DNA from: Anaerolineae bacterium
Lineage (GTDB): Bacteria; Desulfobacterota; Desulfobacteria; Desulfobacterales; ETH-SRB1
NCBI GenBank assembly: GCA_035529315.1
Contig: DATKWZ010000001.1
Location: forward strand, 1-64,000
Length of the DNA stretch: 64,000 nucleotides
Direction of reading: 5' to 3'
Within the stretch, counting starts at the first letter, position 1. Each line of letters begins with the position of its first letter. Positions 2,912-39,856 of the stretch are shown here, piece by piece. The notes below the pieces were generated by a model, which was not told the origin of the DNA, searched no databases, and saw only the letters and a list, made by a program, of their open reading frames with translations. The translations under genes and the position numbers were made by a program.

Positions 2912-4684
2912 ATGTATGGTTTTTATGGCAGGATTTTAAAGGTCGATCTTTCCACGGAAAGATTTAATATAACAACAATAGACGAGAAAATTTATTGTAG
3001 ATATCTTGGCGGAAAGGGGCTTGCTTCTTATCTTCTTTATACTCTTAATCCTGAAGGGGTTGACCCTCTTTCTCCTGCCAACTGCCTGATTTTTGCAACC
3101 GGCCCTGTTACCGGAAGTGTTATATGGGGTTCGAGCAGATACGGGGTTTTTACCAAATCACCTCAGACAGGCCTTTATTCAGAATCCTACTCAGGAGGCA
3201 GAGTGCCGGAAGCCATTGATTCAACAGGATTTGACGCTATTGTTATTGTGGGTAAAAGTAAGAAGCCAGCTGTTCTGGAAGTACACCCTGAAGGGGCTGT
3301 TTTTCACGATGCCGGTGATATATGGGGAATGGAAACTTATGAAGCAGAAGATGCTGTTAATCATCGGTTTGGAATCGCCGGAAGTAAAAGAAAAAAGACA
3401 GGTTCAGTAGTAATAGGGCCTGCCGGCGAAAAGCTTGTTTGCTTTGCTGTTATCGAAAACGACTACTGGCGTTCTGCCGGAAGGACCGGAGTGGGAACGG
3501 TCATGGGATCAAAAAATCTCAAGGCAGTAGTTTTTAAAGGCGATAAAAGGCGTTTGCTTTTTGATAAAGAGAATATCAAACCCTTTTCAAGGCAGGTTGC
3601 GGAAAAATCAAGGGATAATCCGTCGGTTCTGGCTTTCAAATCCTGGGGGACTCCAAACATGGTCAGGACCGCTAATTTGGCCGGGGCATTTCCAACAAGA
3701 TACTGGGCGCAGGGATTTTTTGACGGATGGGAAAATATCAGCTCACAGGCGCTGCATGAGCGCTGTAGCGTTACACCTCATGCCTGCCCCAAATGTTTTA
3801 TTTCATGCGGAAGGATGACCACGGTTGTCAGCGGCCGCCATGCAGGGCTTAAGATCGAAGGGCCTGAATACGAGACTATCTATGCCTTTGGCGGCCTTTG
3901 CCTGATTGACAGTATCGAGGAAATCGCTTATTTAAACGATATTTGCGACAGGCTTGGTATGGACACAATAACAGCCGGCAACCTTTGCGGGTTTACAATC
4001 GAAGCTGCAAGAAAGAAAAGCATAGAATTTCATATAGATTATGGCGATGTAGACGGCATTGCCGGTTTGCTTAAAATGATTGCAAAAAGAGAAGGGATCG
4101 GGGATGTTCTTGCAAGGGGGATTAGATATGCCGCAAAAGAATGGAACCTGGAGGATTTGGCAGTTCATGTTAAGGGCCTTGAGCCGCCAGGATATGATCC
4201 AAGAAGCCTTAAGGGAAGCGGGCTTGGTTTTGCGGTATCTGACAGGGGCGCATGCCATTTAAGAGCAAACTTCCATAATCCGGAATTAACCGGCCTGATC
4301 GATCCTGCTGTTATTAAAGACAAAGCAAAGCTCTTTGTTGATTTCGAGGATCGTCTGACCCTCATGGATGTCCTGATACTGTGCCGGTTTTACAAAGACC
4401 AGTGTTCCTGGGAAGGGCTGAGCCGGCTCATTCAAATTACAACAGGGTTAAAGGAAAGCAAAGAGTCTCTTCAGAAAAGAGCTGCGGAAATAAAGAACCT
4501 GATCCGTTGTTTTAATATTCGTGAAGGCATGAGGCCGGAGGATGACAATCTTCCCAGTCGTTTATACAAAAAGTTTAATAAAACCAAAAGCAGAATAACT
4601 GAAGATGAGCTCAAGGCCATGCTGAAGGATTACTATAACCTTAGAGGATGGGATCAAAACGGTCTGCCGAAAGTTAAACAATAA
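2912..4684 (+). CDS. aor: Tungsten-type aldehyde:ferredoxin oxidoreductase
   Basis: Oxidises aldehydes to carboxylates with ferredoxin as electron acceptor, using a tungsto-bispterin and one Fe4S4 cluster. The 590-residue protein has the N-terminal AOR domain (MYGFYGRILKVDLS; GGKGLASYLL; FATGPVTG) and the cluster ligands Cys292, Cys295 and Cys299 (C-P-K-C-x3-C), with Cys491 in LILCRF as the likely fourth. The ATG at 2912 follows AGGAGG. No ferredoxin, MoaD-like or pterin-synthesis gene lies beside it, so the gene appears monocistronic. The substrate cannot be told from sequence. It may equally belong to a less-characterised AOR subfamily such as those linked to aromatic or glyceraldehyde-3-phosphate metabolism. 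Confidence 0.92.
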   Translation: MYGFYGRILKVDLSTERFNITTIDEKIYCRYLGGKGLASYLLYTLNPEGVDPLSPANCLIFATGPVTGSVIWGSSRYGVFTKSPQTGLYSESYSGGRVPEAIDSTGFDAIVIVGKSKKPAVLEVHPEGAVFHDAGDIWGMETYEAEDAVNHRFGIAGSKRKKTGSVVIGPAGEKLVCFAVIENDYWRSAGRTGVGTVMGSKNLKAVVFKGDKRRLLFDKENIKPFSRQVAEKSRDNPSVLAFKSWGTPNMVRTANLAGAFPTRYWAQGFFDGWENISSQALHERCSVTPHACPKCFISCGRMTTVVSGRHAGLKIEGPEYETIYAFGGLCLIDSIEEIAYLNDICDRLGMDTITAGNLCGFTIEAARKKSIEFHIDYGDVDGIAGLLKMIAKREGIGDVLARGIRYAAKEWNLEDLAVHVKGLEPPGYDPRSLKGSGLGFAVSDRGACHLRANFHNPELTGLIDPAVIKDKAKLFVDFEDRLTLMDVLILCRFYKDQCSWEGLSRLIQITTGLKESKESLQKRAAEIKNLIRCFNIREGMRPEDDNLPSRLYKKFNKTKSRITEDELKAMLKDYYNLRGWDQNGLPKVKQ

Positions 4685-29817: not shown

Positions 29818-29832
29818 TGGCGCAAAATTTGC
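29818..29832 (+). promoter_or_regulatory. Candidate sigma-54 promoter of the pilin cluster
   Basis: TGGCGCAAAATTTGC has GG and GC exactly ten bases apart, as in the -24/-12 consensus TGGCAC-N5-TTGC. It begins 9 bp after the D3 end and about 160 bp before fimT. By chance one expects around two such matches in a window this size, so position is part of the argument. Confidence 0.45.
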
Positions 29833-29850
29833 ATATAAATCAATTTTAAT

Positions 29851-29962
29851 GGATTCGCAAAAAGTCGTCATTTCGGTAGATCCCGGATCAAGTCCGGGAG
29901 GAGTCCAGATGATCTGCAACTACTTGAAAAGACTGGATTACGGCTTTCGCCGGAATGACGGA
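29851..29962. repeat. Family B-like repeat (B4)
   Basis: Opens with GATTCGCAAAAAGTCGTCAT and closes with TTTCGCCGGAATGACGG. The inner parts pair (GTCATTTCGG / CCGGAATGAC). It forms the untranslated leader of fimT. Confidence 0.55.
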
Positions 29963-29981
29963 AATGAGGAATCGAGGCTCT

Positions 29982-30440
29982 ATGCGGCTTTGCAATAAAC
30001 AATCCGGCTTTACACTTATTGAACTGATCGTTACAATTGCTATTCTGGCGGTGTTTGCCGGCATTGCCGTTCCAAATTTTCTGTCTTACATGCCGAAAAG
30101 CAGGTTAAATGGAGCGGCCAGGCAGGTGATGGGTGATTTGATGGCAGCAAGGATGAGAGCTGTTAAAGAGAACTCCACGGCTACGGTAACGTATCTTAGC
30201 AACCATGAGTATAAAATATCGACTGTCAGTGAAGAGAAAACCGTGAATATCTGGCCCAATTATCATGACGTAACTATCGGCAGCGTTAGCGGCGGCAGCT
30301 TTAGTAGTAACAGCTTCAGTAATATTAGTTTTCTTTCCAGAGGAACATCAAACACCGGCAGTGTTGGTCTAACCAATTCGACCAACTCAAAGAAGGTGAG
30401 TGTTACTATAACAGGACGTGTTAAGATAACTCATTTATAA
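29982..30440 (+). CDS. Minor pseudopilin, GspH/FimT type
   Basis: A 152-residue prepilin with a short leader ending in Gly9, then Phe10-TLIE. This fits the prepilin-peptidase consensus with Glu at mature position 5, and a hydrophobic helix follows to about residue 35. The GspH/FimT-type LNGAARQVMGDLMAARMRAVKEN segment follows (broken here at residue level by the helix end). The tail is rich in Ser and Asn. ATG 29982 has GAGG upstream; the ATG at 29964 would lengthen the leader. First gene of the minor-pilin cluster, likely exported through a type IV pilus assembly machine encoded elsewhere. Confidence 0.86.
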   Translation: MRLCNKQSGFTLIELIVTIAILAVFAGIAVPNFLSYMPKSRLNGAARQVMGDLMAARMRAVKENSTATVTYLSNHEYKISTVSEEKTVNIWPNYHDVTIGSVSGGSFSSNSFSNISFLSRGTSNTGSVGLTNSTNSKKVSVTITGRVKITHL

Positions 30441-30471
30441 TTATCTCTACAACACCATTTGCCATTTAGAT

Positions 30472-30580
30472 GTCATTTCGAGAAGCGAAGCGACGAGAAA
30501 TCTTACTGCAAAACATATAGTTAAGGATTCCTCCTTTTGGTCCTGTCTGCGTGCGGACACGCACAGGCAAGCGAAATGAC
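30472..30580. repeat. 109-bp repeat with inverted GTCATTTCG ends (family F)
   Basis: GTCATTTCG at 30472-30480 and CGAAATGAC at 30572-30580 bracket a non-coding stretch. The inside has AAGCGAAGCGACGAGAAATC and a CCTGTCTGCGTGCGGACACG palindrome. It lies between fimT and pilV and splits the two genes by 190 bp. Confidence 0.65.
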
Positions 30581-30630
30581 AAGCGTCATTGTAGGATTAT
30601 TTAACATAAACATAAGGAAAAACTTCCCTA

Positions 30631-31011
30631 ATGTGCAGATTATGCGACAGCAACAATGGTTTTACCCTAATGGAAGTTCTGTTTGCCATGCTTATTTTGA
30701 CAGTAGGACTGCTTGGAACGGCTGCCCTGATAACAGGGGTAATTAACAGCAACAAGCTTAGCAACAGGATTAGCACCGCCACGATTCTGGCGCAGGATAA
30801 GATGGAAGAGATCAGAGGGGTTGGATACGCTGGCGCTGATGCTGAAGCTGGGACAGAAGGCTATAATATCATTCCAAATTATCTTTTATATAAAAGAATC
30901 ACAGCCGTAGTTGCCGGTGATCCAGCCGCTGGCATGAAGAAGATAACTGTTACCGTATATTGGGATTCTGATGCCCATTCGGTTGTTTTAAATACTATCC
31001 TTGCGGAGTAA
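30631..31011 (+). CDS. Minor pilin, PilV type
   Basis: A 126-residue prepilin. The leader ends at Gly10, then Phe-TLMEVLFAML with Glu5. After the helix come AQDKMEEIRGVGYAG and a short beta-rich end (ITVTVYW). This fits PilV/type IV pilus modification proteins, which join a tip-priming complex with PilW, PilX and FimT. AAGGAA lies 12 nt before the ATG. It is 5 nt before pilW. Confidence 0.86.
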   Translation: MCRLCDSNNGFTLMEVLFAMLILTVGLLGTAALITGVINSNKLSNRISTATILAQDKMEEIRGVGYAGADAEAGTEGYNIIPNYLLYKRITAVVAGDPAAGMKKITVTVYWDSDAHSVVLNTILAE

Positions 31012-31016
31012 ACCTA

Positions 31017-31634
31017 TTGCATTATTTGCCTAAAAATAGAGAGAGCGGTTTTACCCTGGTGGAAATGCTGATTGCCATGACAATTGGTCTGATTATCCTG
31101 ACGGCATTGTCGAGCACCTTCCTTATTCAGCGCAAAACATATGATGTTCAGGAACAGATTGTCGAGATGGTTCAGACAGCAAGAGCTGCCATGGACATGA
31201 TGACCAGAGAAATCAGGATGGCGGGGTATAATCCGGCTGGTGTAAGTTTTGATGGTATTCCATATAATGCGGATTCATCGACAATCGATGTATATGCGGA
31301 CCTTAACGGCAACGGCAGTATCGACACCACCAGCGGTACTTACGAACATATAACATATTTATATGACAGCACGAATAATCAGATCGACAGGAATACGAAT
31401 ACCGGTGGCGGCAACCAGCCATTTGCCGAAAACATCGAGACGTTTGAAGTTTTGTGCCTAAAAGCTGATGGCGTGACGGAAGTAACTACAACTGCCGAAA
31501 ATGCTGATATTCGACAGATAAGGATTACAATAACCGCCAGGACAACTGAAGCAGATGCTGATTATTCCACAAATGGCGGATACAGGACACATACTTTAAC
31601 CTCTTTGATAACGCCAAGAAATCTTGGTTTATAG
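31017..31634 (+). CDS. Minor pilin, PilW type
   Basis: A 205-residue prepilin with leader ending in Gly11 then Phe-TLVEMLIAM. The region after the helix (MVQTARAAMDMMTREIRMAG) is characteristic of PilW. The start is TTG at 31017 with GGAG 9 nt upstream at the end of pilV. The last 33 codons are repeated downstream as a remnant (33935-34036). Confidence 0.86.
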   Translation: MHYLPKNRESGFTLVEMLIAMTIGLIILTALSSTFLIQRKTYDVQEQIVEMVQTARAAMDMMTREIRMAGYNPAGVSFDGIPYNADSSTIDVYADLNGNGSIDTTSGTYEHITYLYDSTNNQIDRNTNTGGGNQPFAENIETFEVLCLKADGVTEVTTTAENADIRQIRITITARTTEADADYSTNGGYRTHTLTSLITPRNLGL

Positions 31635-31691
31635 AAACTGGTTACGGGTTCCGACTACTCGACTTTCAAAGGTCTCAATAAAGGGTTTTAA

Positions 31692-32900
31692 ATGTCAGAT
31701 ATGGGTTTGACATATAAAAATGAAAAAGGAATGGTCCTTCCTCTTGGGCTTATGTTCCTTGCTATTATAGCGATTCTGGGAACTACTGCGGTTATAGTAA
31801 CAACAACAGACCTTAAAATCGGCAGCAATTACAGGGCCAGCGAAGAGGCATTTTATGCGGCGGAAGCGGGAATCGAAGAGGCAAGGGCGAGGCTCCGCCA
31901 AAGTGCGGCAAATCATATTAATGATGGACATCCCACCTCTGACCAATGGAGGGCATATATTGGAGAGAATGTAAAAGCGCAAGGAAAGGGATACAACAGC
32001 AGTAATGCGATGCATATTAGGGTATCCAGTCTTCAATCCTATCTGGCATATGTTGTAGAAATAAAACACCAGACAGATACATCAGGCAATATTTTATACT
32101 GGGGAGATCCTGACGGCGACGGGATCAGCCAGCGCAATCTTGATGGGACGTACTCCGGCAACAAAAATATCTATCTTGTTACGAGTTACGGCTATTCAGG
32201 CACTTCAAACAAGGCAATATGTGTTGAAATGACACTGGTTCCTCCTGTAACTGCGCCGGCCGCTCTTTATATTGAAGCCTCAACGACTATTCAGGGTTCC
32301 AGTACTAATATTATCGGCACAGATAGTTGCGGAAGCGAGGATAAGCCGGGGATTATTACTTCACAGGCCGAGGGGTCGATTACGGAGAACGGCAATCCCA
32401 CTATTTCCGGCGACCCCGCTATCTCATACAACGGCGCAAACATGGACATCCAGTCTGTAGTTGATTCCTTTAAAGGCTCCGCTGATTTCGCGTATACTGT
32501 AAATAGCGCCACTGATACAGGAATGAACTGGGGAACTCCGACACCAGGTGCAACCCTGCAGGATCCTTCTTCTTGCAGCTCCAGCAACATTGTTTATTAC
32601 AACACACAGAATACCTATATAAAACTTAGTGGAGGCTCTGCAGGATGCGGGATACTTCTTGTTGAGGGAGATCTGGATATGAGTGGCGGGTTTTCATGGT
32701 ATGGTATAGTTATTGTGACAGGAGCTATTACAATTACCGGCGGCGGGGATAAGAACATTACTGGCGCTTTGATTGCCGGCGGATCCGTAGATGCTGATAT
32801 TGTAGGTGGAAATTCCAATATAGTCTATTGCAGTTCAGCGATAGATAATCAGACAGAAAACCATCCTTTGCTCATACTTAGCTGGGAAGAGGAAATGTAA
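31692..32900 (+). CDS. PilX-like minor pilin with large C-terminal domain, copy 1
   Basis: A 402-residue protein. The N-terminus NEKG-MVLPLGLMFLA is PilX-like, with a hydrophobic helix (13-36) and the conserved GSNYRASEEAFYAAEAG. From about residue 180 comes a Gly/Ser/Asn-rich, repetitive beta region (GDLDMSGG, GAITITGGG) that looks like a right-handed beta-helix or adhesive domain, ending LLILSWEEE. AAAGGG lies 6 nt before the ATG. It is paired tail-to-tail with the exported protein gene at 32921. A second copy with nearly the same first 52 residues is at 34110. Confidence 0.82.
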   Translation: MSDMGLTYKNEKGMVLPLGLMFLAIIAILGTTAVIVTTTDLKIGSNYRASEEAFYAAEAGIEEARARLRQSAANHINDGHPTSDQWRAYIGENVKAQGKGYNSSNAMHIRVSSLQSYLAYVVEIKHQTDTSGNILYWGDPDGDGISQRNLDGTYSGNKNIYLVTSYGYSGTSNKAICVEMTLVPPVTAPAALYIEASTTIQGSSTNIIGTDSCGSEDKPGIITSQAEGSITENGNPTISGDPAISYNGANMDIQSVVDSFKGSADFAYTVNSATDTGMNWGTPTPGATLQDPSSCSSSNIVYYNTQNTYIKLSGGSAGCGILLVEGDLDMSGGFSWYGIVIVTGAITITGGGDKNITGALIAGGSVDADIVGGNSNIVYCSSAIDNQTENHPLLILSWEEEM

Positions 32901-32920
32901 AGGGGATGCTATTTGAAGCT

Positions 32921-33457
32921 CTACTTTTTTACCCACCAGCCTTCAGGCAGCTTTCCATTGTTAATTTCCTTTACCTTGTCAGTAATATCATATATCTTAG
33001 CGGAAATCTTTCTCATTTCATCCCTTGCTTTTTTCTTGGCTTCCTGATCTTTATTATGTGTAGCTTCCCGGATTTTTTCCAGGCTTTCATCAAGTTTGGC
33101 CACCAGCTCTATTTTTCTTTTTATATAGTATTTTACATCTAATGTTTCAGGTTTTATTTTCTCTTCTCTCGTTACAATACCAGTTTTTCCGTTGGTTTTA
33201 CTTTCCATGTCAGTTATATTTTTTTCAGAATCTATCTCTTCTTCATATTCTATATCTGTTTTCTTTATTGTTCTTACAAAATTCTTTTCAATCCCCACAA
33301 TTCCGCCGCGATAATAGAACTTTATCTGACGACCTTCCTTCCAGTAGTGGTTAGTTATGAATGTAGAGCCGTTTTTTAACTCAATAAGATAAGAAGAAAA
33401 GCATACAGCAGGCCATATGATGAAGAAAATTATTATTAGCGGAATAAACTTTTTCAT
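32921..33457 (-). CDS. Small exported protein of unknown family, copy 1
   Basis: 178 residues from ATG 33457: signal peptide (residues 1-21, cut near CFSS), then a beta-rich domain YLIELKNGSTFITNHYW...GGIVGIEK (about 22-65). A charged linker and a helical part (about 110-165) follow, ending NGKLPEGWW. No family name is known to me; the beta part suggests a small SH3- or Sm-like barrel. It is tail-to-tail with pilX copy 1 and homologous over its full length to 35362-35907, with the first 65 residues closest. The earlier ATG at 33499 would spoil the signal peptide. Confidence 0.75.
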   Translation of the reverse strand: MKKFIPLIIIFFIIWPAVCFSSYLIELKNGSTFITNHYWKEGRQIKFYYRGGIVGIEKNFVRTIKKTDIEYEEEIDSEKNITDMESKTNGKTGIVTREEKIKPETLDVKYYIKRKIELVAKLDESLEKIREATHNKDQEAKKKARDEMRKISAKIYDITDKVKEINNGKLPEGWWVKK

Positions 33458-33516
33458 AATATTTTCATGATATAATATTAGTTGTAATAATTCCATCAAA
33501 TATTAAAGTCAATATT

Positions 33517-33703
33517 GATAAACTCGTAAAAAGTCCAAAAACACGTCATTGCGAGCAAAGCGAAGCAATCTCATGGATTGCAACAGCCTGTAATTGCTGG
33601 ATAGCGCTGACGGTTAGCGCTTCCGCTTCACTACGTGTCACTTCGTGCCCCGCCTTCGTGGGAATGACGATTAAGGGGTATGCTGGACTTATTACGAAAC
33701 CGT
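33517..33703. mobile_element. Family B MITE-like element (B1)
   Basis: The left end GATAAACTCGTAAAAAGTC is identical to the right end (reverse complement) of the copy at 52022-52160. The right end GGACTTATTACGAAAC is degenerate. The inside has a TTGCGAGCAAAGCGAAGCAA repeat unit. It separates the two pilX units. Confidence 0.65.
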
Positions 33704-33879
33704 CAAATATTGGTTTCTGAAAAAAATTGGTAAAGTTAATTTTATACAAACGATTAGAACATTAAATATTTTAATAGCTAAGATATAATTTATTTTAAAG
33801 TAAGAGTTTGAATCCCATAATATAATATGATAATATAATTTTTGTTGATTACCAACAATTTTTATTGGAAATGCCGAAA

Positions 33880-33894
33880 TGGCATATAATTTGC
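33880..33894 (+). promoter_or_regulatory. Candidate sigma-54 promoter of the second pilX unit
   Basis: TGGCATATAATTTGC matches TGGCAC-N5-TTGC with GG and GC ten bases apart. It lies 40 bp before the pilW remnant and 215 bp before pilX copy 2. CATATAAT inside it could alternatively serve as a sigma-70 -10 box. Confidence 0.45.
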
Positions 33895-33934
33895 GGGACT
33901 TAATAGTAGAAGAAGGCAATACTTTGTATCCTTA

Positions 33935-34036
33935 ACCGCCAAAACTGTCGAAGCAGGCTCTGATTATTCAGCAAATAACGGTTACAGGACACACACTTTA
34001 ACCTCTTTAATAACGCCGAGAAATCTTGATTTATAG
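33935..34036 (+). pseudogene. 3' remnant of pilW (last 33 codons)
   Basis: Translates to TAKTVEAGSDYSANNGYRTH and on to SLITPRNLDL then stop, matching the end of PilW (31533-31634) with about eight changes. The shared sequence continues through the pilW-pilX spacer. No pilin N-terminus is present. It marks the left boundary of the duplication. Confidence 0.85.
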
Positions 34037-34109
34037 AAACTCGTTACTGGTTGCTCGTTTCGACTGCTCGACCTTCAAAGGTCTCAATAAAGGGTTTTAA
34101 ATATCAGAT

Positions 34110-35351
34110 ATGGGTTTGATATATAAAAATGAAAAAGGAATGGTCCTTCCTCTTGGGCTTATGTTCCTTGCTATTATAGCGATTTTGGGAACCACAGCGG
34201 TTATAGTAACGACAACAGACCTTAAAATCGGCAGCAATTACAGGGCCAGCGAACAGGCATTCTACGATGCAGATGCCGGCGTTCAATACGTAATTGCAAG
34301 CATAAAAGATGGACTTGAAAATGAAACCTTTGCTCTGCCTGCAAATATCGAAGATACCGTTTCTTTTACTTCTTATTATACAACACCTGCGGATTTTTCC
34401 TTTACTATCTCAGACATATCAATGACTGATTCAAATACCTACACCTTCACCAGCACCGGCAGCGGTCCTGGAAACTCGCAATCCGTCATAGAAGTCTCAT
34501 TTGCGAGAGAGGTCACAAGCGCTATTAATTACGCTGGATTTGGTGATGCAAAATTAGATACGAAAAATGGCGGAACTACTTTGAGTTATGACAGCAGCAG
34601 CCCCGATCCCACAAAAAACGATCCTTCTAACCCGTCATTTCAAAGCACGCATGAAGCCGATGTTGGATCTAATGACTGGCTGGTGACCCATAATGGGGTG
34701 TTGATTGATGGAAGCGGAGTATTTGGCGAACAGTCAGACGGCTCTCCTACAACAGACGGCATTCATGGCGGCACAACATTTTATGAAACAACCCCTGTCA
34801 ATGCAGGAAGGATCGATCCTGACCCTCTTGGTGTAAATTCCGGAGGCATATATGATCCTTCTACCTATAGTGTCAGCAACGACAATGACCTCTCCGGAGT
34901 CGGCACCACAATCAACACCAGCGGCCCCGTCACTCTCGTCGGAAAAGCAGGTGGAGCCAATTATTACTTCACGGATATCACCCTGAAAGTTGGGTCAAGC
35001 CTCACTGTTGATGTAACGGCAGGACCACCGGTCAACATATTCCTGGAAGGTGGTCTTGAAGCCAAGAACGGCTCGACAATTAATGTTGTTGGGAACGCAA
35101 CGGATTTTGCTATTTTTTCAAACTCTGCTTCTAAGATCGATTTTAAACACAACAGTGAATTCAAGGGGCTGGTATATGCTCCATTTGCACCTGTTGACAT
35201 GAAAAACAGTTCATCGGTCTATGGAGCAATATGGGCTAAAACCTTAGATATAAAAAATTCAGGTACACTCTATTTTGACACAGCCTTGAAAAACAAGTAT
35301 TCAAATACAACAAACAATATGTTAATTCAGTCTTGGAAAGAAGTTTTTTAG
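34110..35351 (+). CDS. PilX-like minor pilin with large C-terminal domain, copy 2
   Basis: 413 residues from ATG 34110. Residues 1-52 match copy 1 at 50 of 52 positions, then the sequences diverge fully. The C-terminal half is again Gly/Ser/Asn-rich and repetitive (LEAKNGSTINVVG, SEFKGLVYAPFAPVDMKNSS) and ends MLIQSWKEVF, echoing copy 1's ending. The codon equivalent to the copy 1 start is ATA here, so the usable ATG is 15 nt from AAAGGG instead of 6. It is tail-to-tail with its own exported partner gene. Confidence 0.82.
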   Translation: MGLIYKNEKGMVLPLGLMFLAIIAILGTTAVIVTTTDLKIGSNYRASEQAFYDADAGVQYVIASIKDGLENETFALPANIEDTVSFTSYYTTPADFSFTISDISMTDSNTYTFTSTGSGPGNSQSVIEVSFAREVTSAINYAGFGDAKLDTKNGGTTLSYDSSSPDPTKNDPSNPSFQSTHEADVGSNDWLVTHNGVLIDGSGVFGEQSDGSPTTDGIHGGTTFYETTPVNAGRIDPDPLGVNSGGIYDPSTYSVSNDNDLSGVGTTINTSGPVTLVGKAGGANYYFTDITLKVGSSLTVDVTAGPPVNIFLEGGLEAKNGSTINVVGNATDFAIFSNSASKIDFKHNSEFKGLVYAPFAPVDMKNSSSVYGAIWAKTLDIKNSGTLYFDTALKNKYSNTTNNMLIQSWKEVF

Positions 35352-35361
35352 ATTTTATTTT

Positions 35362-35907
35362 TTACATCTGGTCATCCTTATCCCACCATGAAGGAACTTT
35401 ACCCCCATAAGCGGGTTTTACCTTATCGCTGAGAGCTGAAAGTTCTTTTTGTAACAACAGAAGCTTTTCCCATTGCTCATCTGTTTGCTTACCATCCTTT
35501 TTCCTCTTTGCTTCCATGAAGGCAGCGGAAACAGTCTCGATTTCCGTTGCGATACGCATTTTTTCCTTAAGAAATGCTTCTTTTTCAGGATGAGACAACA
35601 GCCCTGTCTCTTTTTCCTGCCCCGATTCCGGTTTGTATTCAGATTCTGCTTTGACCTCTTCTTCTTTTACCGGCCGTGATTCTTCCTTTATGTAAGGCAA
35701 ATCAGACTTCCTGATTTCCCGGACCAGGCTTTTTTCAATCCCCACAATTCCGCCGCGAAAGTAAAGCTTTATCTGGCCTTTTTTCTCCCAATAGTGGTTA
35801 GTTATAAATGTAGAGCCGTTTTTTAACTCAACGAGATAAGAGGAAAGACCGACAGATGGATATATGAAAAAGGCGATGAATACAATTATTAGAATAAACT
35901 TTTTCAT
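35362..35907 (-). CDS. Small exported protein of unknown family, copy 2
   Basis: 181 residues from ATG 35907: signal peptide (1-22), the domain YLVELKNGSTFITNHYW...GGIVGIEK, a Glu-rich linker (about 70-95), a helical region and the ending GGKVPSWWDKDD. It is a paralogue of 32921-33457. The N-terminal domain is highly similar, the linker is not. It stops 11 bp from the pilX copy 2 stop on the other strand. Confidence 0.75.
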   Translation of the reverse strand: MKKFILIIVFIAFFIYPSVGLSSYLVELKNGSTFITNHYWEKKGQIKLYFRGGIVGIEKSLVREIRKSDLPYIKEESRPVKEEEVKAESEYKPESGQEKETGLLSHPEKEAFLKEKMRIATEIETVSAAFMEAKRKKDGKQTDEQWEKLLLLQKELSALSDKVKPAYGGKVPSWWDKDDQM

Positions 35908-35957
35908 AAGATCATCCAACAATCCCATCATTCCGTGAACGGTTACCATTAGACTAA

Positions 35958-38525
35958 TTAATCCTTTTTATAGCCCAGCAGTTCGTATATCTTCAGGTTT
36001 CCGAGTCTGTCATCAACATCACGCAGTTTCAGGCGTGACCGTGCGGAATGGCAGGTTTTTTCACTAATCAAAATACCGTTCGGAATGGATTTGGTAAGCC
36101 CCTGAAGCTTAAATACATCATTCACGGGATCGCCGATAACAGTATAATCCATTTTCATGTCAAAGCCGAAGTTGCCTACAACTACTTCACCAGTATGAAC
36201 ACTTATACCTATACTTATAGAAGCGCCAAATTCCCCGGCAAAATAATCATTTACGGTTGCAAGCGAGTTTTTCATTTCAAGCGCTGCCAGCACAGCATTA
36301 TCTGAATCCATAGTGCTTGAGACAGGCGCTCCGAAAAGCGCGAGCAGCCCATCACCAAGATACTTATCAACAATACCGTGATATTTGAAGACTATGCCTC
36401 CCATAACGGAAAAGAAATGATTGAGCAGAGCAACTGTTTTCTGATATCCGATTTTTACTGAAAGCTCTGAAAATTTCCTGATATCAACATTCAGCATAGT
36501 AATAGTCTTTACCTCTTCAGCCATTTCCTTTCCTGTTTCTGAATGGTGGATGATCTTATCGACTATATACTTGGGTACAAATTTTTGAAACACGTTCCTT
36601 ATACCACGCTCATGCTCGGCCATTGAGACGGTTTCCTTGTAAAGCCTGGCGTTTTCAATGGCAATACTTACCGATGATGATATAGACTGCAGCAGATCTT
36701 CATCGTTGGAGTCAAAATCCCCCTTAATTTTATTTAGAACTTCAAGAACCCCGACAACCCTTCCCTGAGAAATCATCGGCACGCACAATGCAGACAACGT
36801 CTCAAAACCTGTAGTGTTATCTACATTAGGATTAAAGTGCGGTGACTTGTGTGTATCATTTATAATAATTGATTCCCCCCGTGCCGCCGTATAACCGGCA
36901 ATTCCCTGACCCATTTTAAGTCGCAGATTTTTCAGATCTTTCAGAGATTCAAGTTCAACATTAAATCCAACAGCAAGCTCAAGCTCGTTTTCCTTCACAA
37001 GATATAGAGTACCCGCTTCAACGTTCATGATTACTTTAATCATATCCATTGTATACTCAAGAACCTTGTTCATATCAAAAGTTGATGAAGCAAGGGCGCT
37101 TCCAATTTGTTTGATCGAATCCAATTCTTTATTGCGTTTAACAACAGATTCAGACAACTTATTGCGCTCTATGGCAACGGAAAGCGCATCCGCCATCCAT
37201 TCTATTAATTGCTTATTATCATAAAACACAACTGACTCCTGTGCAGTTAACGCAACCAATCCATACATAACCCCGCTCATCTTCAATGGTGCAAGAATGC
37301 ATGACTTAACACCCTGATTCACAAAGAGTTTTTTCTCAACCTCACTGGAAAGCACACTGGCATCATCTATAATAAGAGTGTTCCCCTGTTTCAGAATCTT
37401 ATCAATGATAGTACCCCTCTGGTATTGATAAAAGGCGTTTTTGGTAATATCTGTTGGCGCATTGGCCAGCAAATCAATAATTTTTATCTGATTAGGAATG
37501 TTTTCAACTATGGTTATCACCAAAGCTATACTAAACGGAACAACGGCTTGAATCTCATTCATAATAGCATGTAAAAGTTCACTATCCCTGAGACTTGAGT
37601 TCATTGTCTTGAAGATTTTCTCAACTGCCTTTAGAATGAGCTCTTCCTTTTTATTATACTTCAAAAGACTGAGGTTTTCATATGTGAAAGCAGCGTTGCT
37701 CAAAAGGGGAGTCAAAACTTCCACGTCGTCCTGTGTATAAATTTTATCACTACTTCTACATGAAATTGTAAGCACTCCGACAATATCTTTGCTGGTTTTA
37801 ATCGGCATACAAACAAAGGATTTCGAGGCATATTGAGGACGGTTTGCCCTTCCGAACCTGGTGTCCTTTTCAATGTCTTCAACCACGATAGGCGATTTAT
37901 TGATTACAGCATACTTGGCGATACTTGTTTTAAAATCCACCTCGTCATCTATCTTGATGTATTCCCCAGCCCCAATGGTCGCCTTAACAATAAACGACTC
38001 GCTGTCACGATCCAGAATCATGACTGAACCCACGTCTGAAACAGTTAATGCCAGGGAACGCTCCAGGGTGATATAAAGGATTTCAGTTGGATCAAATGTA
38101 ACATAGCAAAGTTCGGAAAGCTCCTTTAGTATTGATATTTCAGAAGACTTCTTTTGAAGCTGCTGGAAAGTCTTGCTGAATTGATTCTCAATTGCGTTAA
38201 AAGATTGGACAAGGCTGTGTATTTCATCCGTGCCTGGATGAATTCCTTCTCCTGTCTCTGCAATATTTTTCTTGGAAATCTTATCGGATATATTCGTTAT
38301 CTCATTAAACAACCTCCTTAGCATCGTATATCCTGAAAATGAAAAAACCAGAAGGCCCAGAAAAAACAGCAAAACATATTCGTCATTCATTAAGTTATAT
38401 CTGATTCCGAACATAACAAATCCCAGTACAGGGAACAGAAAAAAGAGGCCAAATATTATAATGAGCTTATAATGAAGATTTTTATTTTTAAGGGAATTAT
38501 TCCCAAACCACTTCTCAAAATTCAT
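35958..38525 (-). CDS. Membrane class III nucleotide cyclase with three GAF domains
   Basis: An 855-residue signalling protein. It has two membrane helices (about 20-37 and 50-67), a HAMP-like segment and coiled coil (68-150), three GAF domains (about 140-280, 300-455, 480-630) and a C-terminal class III cyclase (about 665-830). Both metal aspartates are present (LNVDIRKFSEL; YLGDGLLALFG). In the transition-state motif VNDVFKLQ the Asn is kept but the usual Arg four residues later is Lys. It would make cAMP (or cGMP) in response to a small ligand or redox signal. It lies just beyond the pilin units on the opposite strand to pilX, 50 bp upstream (in its own reading direction) of exported copy 2. 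Confidence 0.87.
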   Translation of the reverse strand: MNFEKWFGNNSLKNKNLHYKLIIIFGLFFLFPVLGFVMFGIRYNLMNDEYVLLFFLGLLVFSFSGYTMLRRLFNEITNISDKISKKNIAETGEGIHPGTDEIHSLVQSFNAIENQFSKTFQQLQKKSSEISILKELSELCYVTFDPTEILYITLERSLALTVSDVGSVMILDRDSESFIVKATIGAGEYIKIDDEVDFKTSIAKYAVINKSPIVVEDIEKDTRFGRANRPQYASKSFVCMPIKTSKDIVGVLTISCRSSDKIYTQDDVEVLTPLLSNAAFTYENLSLLKYNKKEELILKAVEKIFKTMNSSLRDSELLHAIMNEIQAVVPFSIALVITIVENIPNQIKIIDLLANAPTDITKNAFYQYQRGTIIDKILKQGNTLIIDDASVLSSEVEKKLFVNQGVKSCILAPLKMSGVMYGLVALTAQESVVFYDNKQLIEWMADALSVAIERNKLSESVVKRNKELDSIKQIGSALASSTFDMNKVLEYTMDMIKVIMNVEAGTLYLVKENELELAVGFNVELESLKDLKNLRLKMGQGIAGYTAARGESIIINDTHKSPHFNPNVDNTTGFETLSALCVPMISQGRVVGVLEVLNKIKGDFDSNDEDLLQSISSSVSIAIENARLYKETVSMAEHERGIRNVFQKFVPKYIVDKIIHHSETGKEMAEEVKTITMLNVDIRKFSELSVKIGYQKTVALLNHFFSVMGGIVFKYHGIVDKYLGDGLLALFGAPVSSTMDSDNAVLAALEMKNSLATVNDYFAGEFGASISIGISVHTGEVVVGNFGFDMKMDYTVIGDPVNDVFKLQGLTKSIPNGILISEKTCHSARSRLKLRDVDDRLGNLKIYELLGYKKD

Positions 38526-38685
38526 CTTATAACTCTTTCTCCGAAATTTGCATTGTAAATGTTTTGGTACGCGAATTGTCTGGATTTCCGCTCCCCGATC
38601 GAAGTCGAGGACAAGCTTCGCTGGGATGACAAAAGCGTGTGCTTTTGATTTTTTGCTAAGTCATCAACCTTAATGGTCTATGGTC

Positions 38686-39723
38686 TCATTTTTTCGGTAA
38701 AGGGCTGCAGATTTTAGCGCCCGGAGTAATACTTTTATCCGACCTTGTAATAAGAACTGTAGCTGTGTTCTGTTCGGTGCGCAGGACAAACAATGTCCCA
38801 AAATCTACGACCGAAAGAAGGGTATATTTTTTACTTTTGGGATCGAGCCGCTTTTTTTCCTGGTAATATATACTGTAGTACTGCCCCGGCATTACGCCTT
38901 CCTGACTGCCCCTGTCAATAAAGGCTATTGCGCCGTCTCCGCTGATGGTTGCTTTTTCTTCTGAGCCTATGATTGATCCTTCAAGCCCTTTTTTGCTTTC
39001 GGCAATTAATATTTTCTTTGACAGCGGCTGATACGGCATTAAAAGATCATTGACTGCAATAGAGCGGAAAGATTGAACAACCTTTGCTACAGAAAAATCA
39101 GGATGCTTTTCTGTAATTTCAAGTATCCCGGTCAGATAGTGCTGAAATCCAACAGTATCCTTTGTTTTTTTGTTTATTACATGTTCTATGGTTCTATATG
39201 TTGTATATTTTTGCCCTGGAATAAATAATGCATTATTATTTTGTTTTATATAAACCTTGTCACCATGACTGATCATAATTTTATCGTTATATGACTTGAA
39301 TATATGTCCTGAGGGGGTAACAGGTTCTTTTTTAATAAAACCTATTTTGTCAATTGCAGTATAAAGGAGATATGGAGGTTCTTTTTGCGGCTTTTTTTCT
39401 TGCAAGGACTTTTCAGCCACATCTGTTTCAGCCGTTGTTTTAATCCACCCTTTATGAAACAGGCGTATCCTTTCGCCAGGGTAAACCAGATGGGGATTGG
39501 GGACCTGTCTGTTTTCTTCCCACAAATCAGGCCACTGCCATGGTGAATCAAAGAATCGCTGCGAAATATCCCAGAGTGTGTCTCCCCTTTGAATAGTATA
39601 ATAAAAGCCTGTTTCATGTTTGATTCCCTTTTCATCTTCAGCACAAAGATATAAGGGGCAAGCAATTATTACTGTGAATATCCACAGACAGGGAATTACT
39701 TTGATAATTTTACTATAATTCAT
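38686..39723 (-). CDS. Secreted LysM-domain protein
   Basis: 345 residues: signal peptide or anchor (1-28), one LysM peptidoglycan-binding domain (about 42-90: YTIQRGDTLWDISQRFF and ENRQVPNPHLVYPGERI), then a 240-residue region without a recognised catalytic domain. This matches the LysM proteins common in this phylum that are often filed as FimV/YgaU-like. It likely sits at the cell wall. About 160 bp upstream of the cyclase on the same strand, so possibly co-transcribed with it. Confidence 0.82.
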   Translation of the reverse strand: MNYSKIIKVIPCLWIFTVIIACPLYLCAEDEKGIKHETGFYYTIQRGDTLWDISQRFFDSPWQWPDLWEENRQVPNPHLVYPGERIRLFHKGWIKTTAETDVAEKSLQEKKPQKEPPYLLYTAIDKIGFIKKEPVTPSGHIFKSYNDKIMISHGDKVYIKQNNNALFIPGQKYTTYRTIEHVINKKTKDTVGFQHYLTGILEITEKHPDFSVAKVVQSFRSIAVNDLLMPYQPLSKKILIAESKKGLEGSIIGSEEKATISGDGAIAFIDRGSQEGVMPGQYYSIYYQEKKRLDPKSKKYTLLSVVDFGTLFVLRTEQNTATVLITRSDKSITPGAKICSPLPKK

Positions 39724-39811: not shown

Positions 39812-39856
39812 TCAAAAAAAAGCCCTCATGCTGTAACAGCAAGAGGGCTTTTTTTG
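39812..39856 (-). terminator. Intrinsic terminator after groEL
   Basis: AGCCCTC / GAGGGCT stem with an inner GCTGT / ACAGC stem, flanked by A/T runs on both sides (8 T on the minus strand). It ends groESL and could also act on plus-strand transcripts. Confidence 0.9.

Follow-up and report, generated by a model that had tools for sequence, protein, structure and literature searches.

Subunits of type IV pili vary by allele or by cassette around a conserved N-terminus, as in the pilin and minor-pilin alleles of Pseudomonas aeruginosa and in pilE/pilS of Neisseria. In the canonical tip complex, FimU-PilV-PilW-PilX-PilY1, a short PilX adjoins the tip (PMC7541494, PMC13190605). Modular pilins have been described as well. 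According to the accessible part of the source, ComZ of Thermus thermophilus (PDB 6qvi) is a GspK-like pilin whose fold takes up, ahead of its last strand, a large beta-solenoid akin to ice-binding proteins, and is argued to stand at the pilus tip (PMC6561018). The accessible parts of two further papers describe PilB and PilC of Streptococcus sanguinis as carrying a functional domain grafted on a short pilin within a tip complex, at the place where PilY1 acts in diderms (PMC9934059, PMC10191384). The PilV shufflon of IncI plasmids (R64, TP114) joins exchangeable C-termini to the constant N-terminus of a minor pilin and alters pilus binding (PMC9045228), and the orphan cdiA-CT/cdiI and rhs-CT regions place alternative C-terminal modules behind a conserved upstream gene, with short retained homology and, in many cases, without start signals (PMC3150448). 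Here we describe a pilX locus in the first 64,000 nucleotides of contig DATKWZ010000001.1 (GCA_035529315.1; hereafter the window), from Candidatus Desulfaltia (ETH-SRB1 family, Desulfobacterales), a seafloor sulfate reducer. Two cassettes lie in tandem, and their PilX proteins combine nearly identical heads with bodies that do not align. We consider it fairly likely that PilX is a modular tip protein, probably a stand-in for PilY1, that is diversified by cassette exchange.

An operon fimT-pilV-pilW-pilX (29955-32900) faces conv, a small exported gene on the opposite strand. Following conv1 come a second cassette (a 34-codon pilW stub, pilX2 and conv2), a GAF/nucleotide-cyclase gene, a LysM gene and groEL. 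The two cassettes are composed as follows.

31017..31634, + strand: complete pilW-like minor pilin gene (N_methyl; PRK10557 E 1.7e-11)
31531..31844, + strand: left conserved arm, copy 1, a direct repeat of pilW 3' end, spacer and pilX head
31692..32900, + strand: pilX1, with a PilX_N head to 31844 (PF14341 E 9e-11) and a class A1 body at 31845-32900
32921..33457, - strand: conv1, convergent exported protein, with a class-specific C-half (32921-33276) and a family-conserved N-half (33277-33457)
33933..34253, + strand: left conserved arm, copy 2, direct repeat
33935..34036, + strand: pilW 3' stub, reading LTAKTVEAGSDYSANNGYRTHTLTSLITPRNLDL and then stop in frame, and ending at the pilW stop
34110..35351, + strand: pilX2, with a PilX_N head to 34253 (E 2e-8) and a class B body at 34254-35351 (DUF7305 E 2.6e-19; predicted beta-solenoid)
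35362..35907, - strand: conv2, with a conserved N-half (35724-35907) and a C-half (35362-35723) common to G005, G013 and L108

The tandem blocks had been reported in an earlier note made from the sequence; its coordinates and counts, including those of the pilW stub, checked out, and the repeats were recovered mechanically. Direct repeats pair 31531-31891 with 33933-34300 (83-88% DNA identity) and 33254-33462 with 35701-35912 (76-86%). From 31587 through the pilW end, the spacer and pilX codon 48, the blocks are mostly ~95% identical in DNA, and identity then drops to background within a few codons. Counted from the shared ATG (31701 / 34110), the first 52 residues of PilX1 and PilX2 differ at positions 4 and 49 only, reproducing the agreement at 50 of 52 positions that the note had given, and the bodies indeed do not align (no BLAST match; a global identity of 23-28%, which is background). 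Only 5 of codons 1-48 differ between the copies (4 synonymous changes, 1 replacement), against 11 of the 12 codons 49-60, unchanged residues 51, 52, 54, 56 and 57 included. These synonymous changes at unchanged residues place the break at codon 48/49, and they indicate that the conserved AFYxAxAG motif just past it is old and lies outside the recent identity. It follows from the abrupt step that head and body of pilX have different histories. Since head/body splits and extra cassettes recur in independent assemblies, the arrangement is no assembly artefact.

On the other side of the bodies, conv1 and conv2 are alike in their 5' halves only (33277-33463 / 35724-35912; about 75-80% in DNA). The variable middle thus runs from pilX codon 49 to mid-conv, bordered on each side by the conserved 5' end of one of the two convergent genes. 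The exchanged unit proposed earlier was the pilX body, which holds but is incomplete, as the 3' half of conv is exchanged too. In the shufflon, Rci inverts 3' ends of ~70-110 residues site-specifically, whereas here whole bodies of ~350 residues are replaced, apparently by homologous recombination. The repeats at the pilX locus are direct; apart from a 20-bp hairpin at 39815 no inverted repeat was found, and no recombinase-like gene was seen among the neighbours examined.

If heads and bodies have separate histories, they should find different relatives. We searched 58 related genomes with each PilX; most of the compared genomes are metagenome bins, in which short contigs are possibly mis-binned. 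Head-only and full-length matches fell in different genomes, and the head turned up in additional blocks joined to other bodies. Against named genomes, full-length PilX1 gave no match and the head alignment gave 20. In the host family (f1), the 17 intact heads are 75-98% identical, and the bodies form at least five classes (A1/A2, B with DUF7305, C, D and E), of which the main ones are not joined by BLAST; in profile comparison A joins C and B joins E. Genus g1 by itself holds classes A, B, C, D and E, so there is no single fixed body per lineage. The bodies of G005 (L065) and G010 (L070) are 55% identical over their first ~118 residues and belong to different classes over the remainder, so that bodies are mosaic too, with exchange inside them. 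Homology between classes A and B was considered and rejected, as the alignment, a weak one (hhalign 28%), is confined to the final ~42 columns.

Comparison with single relatives gives the same contrast between head and body. Relative to the sister species G001 (GroEL 97% identical), the X1 cassette is 79% identical in PilV, 77% in PilW, 98% in the head and 81% in the conv N-half, against 38% in the body and 18% (unrelated) in the conv C-half. Relative to family f41 (GroEL 81-84%), the head is 57-64% and the body 57-69% identical, and the C-terminal part of the body reaches 74% in G161 of that family; for L107 the values are 65% (head) and 40% (conv N-half), and 58% (body) and 61% (conv C-half). 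The X2 body is 66% identical to that of G031, from family f16, where FimT, PilV, PilW and the head reach 31, 29, 32 and 37%. Host-family monophyly was rejected in approximately unbiased (AU) tests for class B bodies (log-likelihood 134.5 lower, p-AU 2.7e-91) and for class A bodies (214.4 lower, p-AU 1.3e-61). In a tree of heads (52 columns), X1 groups with its own family. By these comparisons heads follow the host family and bodies cross families, and together with the breakpoint they bear out the earlier proposal of a conserved assembly head with an exchanged body.

Duplication in tandem, after which the bodies diverged fast under positive selection and nothing was exchanged, would fit the tandem order of the blocks, the perhaps common fold of the bodies and their similar end motif. 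It would call for divergence of the uniform kind from codon 53 onward, and what is seen is the abrupt synonymous step at codon 48/49. In addition, the X1 and X2 bodies are far closer to those of other families than to each other or to the sister species, as the AU rejections also show, and in the conv N-half the two blocks are as far apart as different species are (75% identity). The cross-family bodies refute this account unless the genomes concerned are mis-binned, and we regard it as highly improbable; the locus is not a case of ordinary paralogue divergence.

An ancestral array (A1, A2, B, C, D, E) that underwent differential loss, with heads homogenised by gene conversion and little transfer, deserves more weight. 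Extra cassettes and remnants are widespread, and class B occurs at this locus in several families. Against it, G001 and G007, which belong to different genera (GroEL 90%), share 85% identity in the body, 88% in the conv C-half and 89% in FimT, compared with 77-78% in PilV and PilW, a pattern that fits recent transfer. The 66% of the X2 body to G031 stands against 29-37% for the four upstream pilin sequences, and two or three cassettes are the most that any compared genome carries. Horizontal transfer is favoured over sorting from an older array with head conversion by the G001-G007 and X2-G031 patterns, and we think the array an unlikely source of the present diversity. Constant homogenisation of the head across species was also considered and dropped, as synonymous conservation of the head is raised just modestly over that of pilW and pilV. 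As a separate observation, FimT at 89% against PilV and PilW at 77-78% in the same pair (L062 and L067) leaves room for fimT to have been exchanged as well. Under cassette exchange, then, the varying part would be one large tip-type minor pilin and half of its convergent neighbour, whereas in P. aeruginosa and Neisseria variation falls on the major pilin or on alleles of an entire operon.

Two contigs require caution. One in f41 (L102 / G183; 3.8 kb, GroEL 81%) has an f1-like head (85-90%), a PilV at 73% and a conv N-half at 88%, and represents either whole-cassette transfer or mis-binning. The other, L106, carries a class B pilX on a Nanoarchaeota-labelled contig and is almost certainly a contaminant of its bin.

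The convergent gene takes part in the exchange. The pilX-conv pair recurs in other families, and the stop-to-stop distance is about 0-50 bp in most genomes. By sequence, conv is a mosaic of a family-conserved N-half and an exchangeable C-half beside the pilX body: the C-half of conv1 is the part closer to L107 and the N-half the part closer to G001. Across genomes, the N-half tracks the PilX head (Mantel r 0.68, p 0.0005), and similarity of the C-half is associated with body class (17 pairs alike in both, where 3.4 were expected; p 5e-5). That the pilX body and the conv C-half are strictly inherited together was rejected; the association is genuine but has exceptions, and linkage alone could explain it. 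Body and partner gene also travel together in the cdiA-CT and rhs-CT regions, which differ in being toxin/immunity pairs read one way, where the present pair joins a pilin to an exported protein encoded convergently. The Pfam/NCBIfam matches include no toxin or immunity family.

A tip pilin is expected to carry the marks of its position. Both PilX copies have a PilX_N domain (PF14341, above gathering) and a class III leader, and are encoded alongside fimT, pilV and pilW (29955-31634), in an order that is the same in relatives and in the canonical tip complex. The leader and cleavage site of both (NEKG/MVLPL) lacks Glu5, which FimT, PilV and PilW have, and this absence is a mark of cap-type subunits. 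The PilX2 model (predicted local distance difference test, pLDDT, 82) comprises a long helix, a beta-rich domain, a solenoid and closing strands. Among solved structures it comes closest in Foldseek to ComZ (E 3e-7) and then to DUF3494 ice-binding proteins, and a class B relative exceeds the cut-off of PF20597, 'ice-binding-like adhesive'. PilX2 is thus predicted to be a pilin carrying a beta-solenoid, and there are hints that PilX1 has the same fold. The earlier note had also remarked on a shared LLI(L/Q)SW(E/K)E end; the motif is present, but it is not peculiar to the pair, as LLI.SW.E is general to PilX proteins of the group. An insertion like that of ComZ would account for a common C-terminal motif behind unrelated bodies, the motif being in that case the closing strand of the pilin fold.

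The likeness to ComZ also raises the possibility that the body is no adhesin but receives DNA for natural transformation, the role proposed for ComZ. ComZ is the nearest solved structure, and the accessible part of its description presents a tip-associated DNA-binding pilin (PMC6561018). It shares ~14% sequence identity with PilX2, and no exchange of its body is reported in that part of the paper. The extreme diversity of PilX bodies has no obvious need in DNA binding, and the same fold serves ice-binding and adhesion. We rate a DNA receptor as rather doubtful, and suggest an adhesin or partner-choice function for the bodies.

PilY1 (PF05567) was found in none of the 15 f1 genomes (the window genome, G000, and 14 others) and in 162 of the 242 genomes of the order. 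Only 5 of the 30 genomes with a strong conv match have it, compared with 157 of the other 212, and outside the window family it is present in 5 of 15 strong-conv genomes (Fisher p 0.002; the genomes are not independent). In f41, four of five conv-bearing genomes are without PilY1, and the seven f41 genomes listed with PilY1 have no strong conv. G031 carries both, with PilY1 beside its other minor-pilin set, where PilX is short. The absence of PilY1 together with a large PilX makes PilX a plausible tip stand-in. Compared with the canonical complex, no PilY1 gene was found here, PilX measures 400-575 aa instead of being short, and there is a conserved convergent partner. The S. sanguinis proteins differ in their modules (vWA, lectin) and in that PilC keeps Glu5, and the accessible parts of those papers describe no multi-allelic exchange at a fixed locus and no reserve cassettes. 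The window genome has two PilT/PilU family genes and PilQ above cut-off and a PilB-like gene under the equivalog cut-off, consistent with a pilus that is probably a retractile type IVa pilus.

In the mechanism that we propose, the pilX product would be a cap-type minor pilin of such a pilus. The leader and alpha-1 helix, together ~50 residues, would form an assembly head kept within the host family, and the remainder a large exchangeable body at the tip in the place of PilY1; the class B body would be a beta-solenoid set in a pilin fold much like that of Thermus ComZ. Bodies would be swapped between strains, genera and families through recombination, with pilW end, spacer and pilX head as the left arm and the conv N-half as the right arm. 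The pilX body and the conv C-half would make up the variable middle, replaced together often, not always, and the second cassette would be an additional tandem one. The mosaic make-up, the breakpoint, the cross-family bodies, the recurring stub-led extra cassettes, the lack of a PilY1 match and the PilB/PilT/PilQ-like genes are direct observations; the tip position, ligand binding, replacement of PilY1 and use of the second copy are steps that we infer. The pilus end would be the part swapped in evolution, which may alter what the cell holds on to. Alternatively, the bodies may diversify under phages that bind the pilus tip and not under differing ligands. Phages commonly use type IV pili as receptors; a phage cause is, however, not the only one that would fit wholesale replacement across families, and we find this improbable. 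A viral origin was also considered and dropped, since there was no match among viral contigs.

Several points weigh against our explanation. The TM-scores between PilX2 and ComZ are low, ~0.3 over the whole chain. Structural prediction succeeded for PilX2 and not for PilX1, whose model is poor (pLDDT 50; best fold match E 0.015), so that a class A solenoid rests on weak matches. PilY1 absence was judged with one Pfam model on metagenome bins. The head tree is weak owing to its few columns, and a test against grouping the X1 head with the bearers of A1 bodies gave p 0.052. The coupling of body and conv C-half is imperfect: the conv1 C-half also resembles those of G011, G012 and G014, which have class B bodies, and a rank Mantel test of body against conv C-half was not significant. 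The X1 and X2 heads are no nearer each other (97% in DNA) than X1 is to G005 (97%) or G001 (96%), which leaves recent in-genome conversion unsupported and led us to reject a recent in-genome duplication of the head. Function assignments in the whole analysis rest on inference, those on the expression, localisation and binding of PilX included.

Other genomes, too, carry extra cassettes. In the window genome, G012, G013 and both G014 loci, pilW 3' stubs of varied length precede extra pilX copies, and second cassettes are also present in G010 and G028. In G008 (L068), the second pilX copy is frameshifted by a short head deletion near 4172. pilX2 of the window is without the upstream start used by pilX1 (ATG 31692 to ATA 34101), and its remaining in-frame ATG lies ~15 nt from the ribosome-binding site. 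Its frame is open over 413 codons, and the sigma-54-like element upstream resembles the one before fimT. The second cassette may be a retained or incoming alternative, weakly expressed or in reserve; a choice of adhesins on one pilus, as first suggested, would require both copies to be used in one cell, and the pilX2 start is degraded. It might also be a silent reserve that is switched into the expressed site within a cell lineage, in the style of pilin antigenic variation or the PilV shufflon. Stub-led cassettes, the lost pilX2 start, the frameshifted G008 copy and ~320 bp of near-identical left arm speak for such switching, while the open frame with its in-frame ATG and own sigma-54-like element speaks against it, as do the lack of any recombinase noticed at the locus and of any genome pair seen in a switched state. 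We consider switching distinctly unlikely, and an additional tandem cassette remains our reading. In G014, two pilX genes lie on different contigs (L073/L103 and L074/L104), each behind a pilW stub and with bodies 90% identical, and the complete pilW is on a third contig; the pair appears to be a recent cassette dispersal. Shifted pilX frames were also seen in L039 (G012) near 1264-1293 and L152 (G161) near 804-815, and could be sequencing errors.

The setting gives partner choice some interest. The window genome (2.2 Mb, 57 contigs, ~98% complete) has Candidatus Desulfaltia and Eth-SRB1 as its nearest named relatives. According to the accessible part of one study, Eth-SRB1 and Seep-SRB1a, which are syntrophs of ethane- and methane-oxidising archaea, belong to one family, and the adhesins of syntrophic sulfate reducers are in part partner-specific; PilX is not discussed in that part (PMC10553843). 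Our literature search found no paper on Desulfaltia pili or on DUF7305. The locus had been put forward as a candidate for an undescribed system, which is not borne out, since pilins of modular build, and a tip pilin with a beta-solenoid (ComZ), were already described. As far as the searched literature goes, what is new is that complete beta-solenoid bodies are replaced on a PilX head while the locus stays fixed, that a convergent partner has its C-half exchanged along with them, and that the arrangement is linked to PilY1 absence. The broadest version concerns PilY1-less seafloor sulfate reducers, some of them partners of alkane-oxidising archaea: their pilus tip would be a ligand-binding beta-solenoid module that can be interchanged, passes between families in a cassette of convergent genes together with a matched exported partner, is held in reserve in tandem, and decides which surface or partner is attached; this we put forward as a long shot. 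If cassette exchange is true, it names the varying pilus part in PilY1-less bacteria and gives a handle on partner recognition by bacteria in syntrophic consortia, a long-standing question. It would also provide a simple exchange layout, in which convergent genes have conserved 5' ends as homology arms and variable 3' ends as one middle, natural chimeras of one head with many bodies that separate pilus assembly from function, and a likely fold and place for DUF7305.

The remaining features of the locus are listed below.

29818..29833, + strand: sigma-54-type -24/-12 element TGGCGCAAAATTTGCA, upstream of fimT; consensus match only
29955..30440, + strand: fimT/GspH-like minor pilin gene, class III signal, Glu5 present (Pfam N_methyl and GspH)
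30631..31011, + strand: pilV-like minor pilin gene (TIGR02523 E 2.9e-12, just under cut-off)
33542..33690, no strand: repetitive extragenic palindromic (REP)-like element between the cassettes, starting CGTCATTGCGAGC and ending GGAATGACG, and matched in part at 20 other places in the 2.2-Mb genome
33880..33894, + strand: sigma-54-type element TGGCATATAATTTGC before the second cassette; a consensus match that may be chance
35958..38525, - strand: GAF-class III adenylate/guanylate cyclase gene (Pfam), right flank of the syntenic locus, just upstream of conv2 and on the same strand

The element upstream of fimT is the same before the operon in G001 and G007, and variants are present in G002, L099, G028 and G042; the window has 4 sigma-54 consensus matches against 1.2 expected. 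The idea that the region upstream of the second block was copied from the fimT promoter region was considered and rejected, as the two have no similarity. The window PilW is 69-77% identical to those of G001, G003 and G005. The position of the locus by groEL is constant in genera g1 and g2 and in families f13 and f16, and the bodies differ. The cyclase beside the pilin locus of G001 is 87% identical to that of the window, and a cyclase at a pilus-tip locus could couple surface contact to cyclic AMP. The conv2, cyclase and LysM genes are close-packed on one strand (35362-39723, -) and adjoin groEL. A repetitive element similar in look to the one at 33542-33690 lies before fimT, at about 29870-29960.

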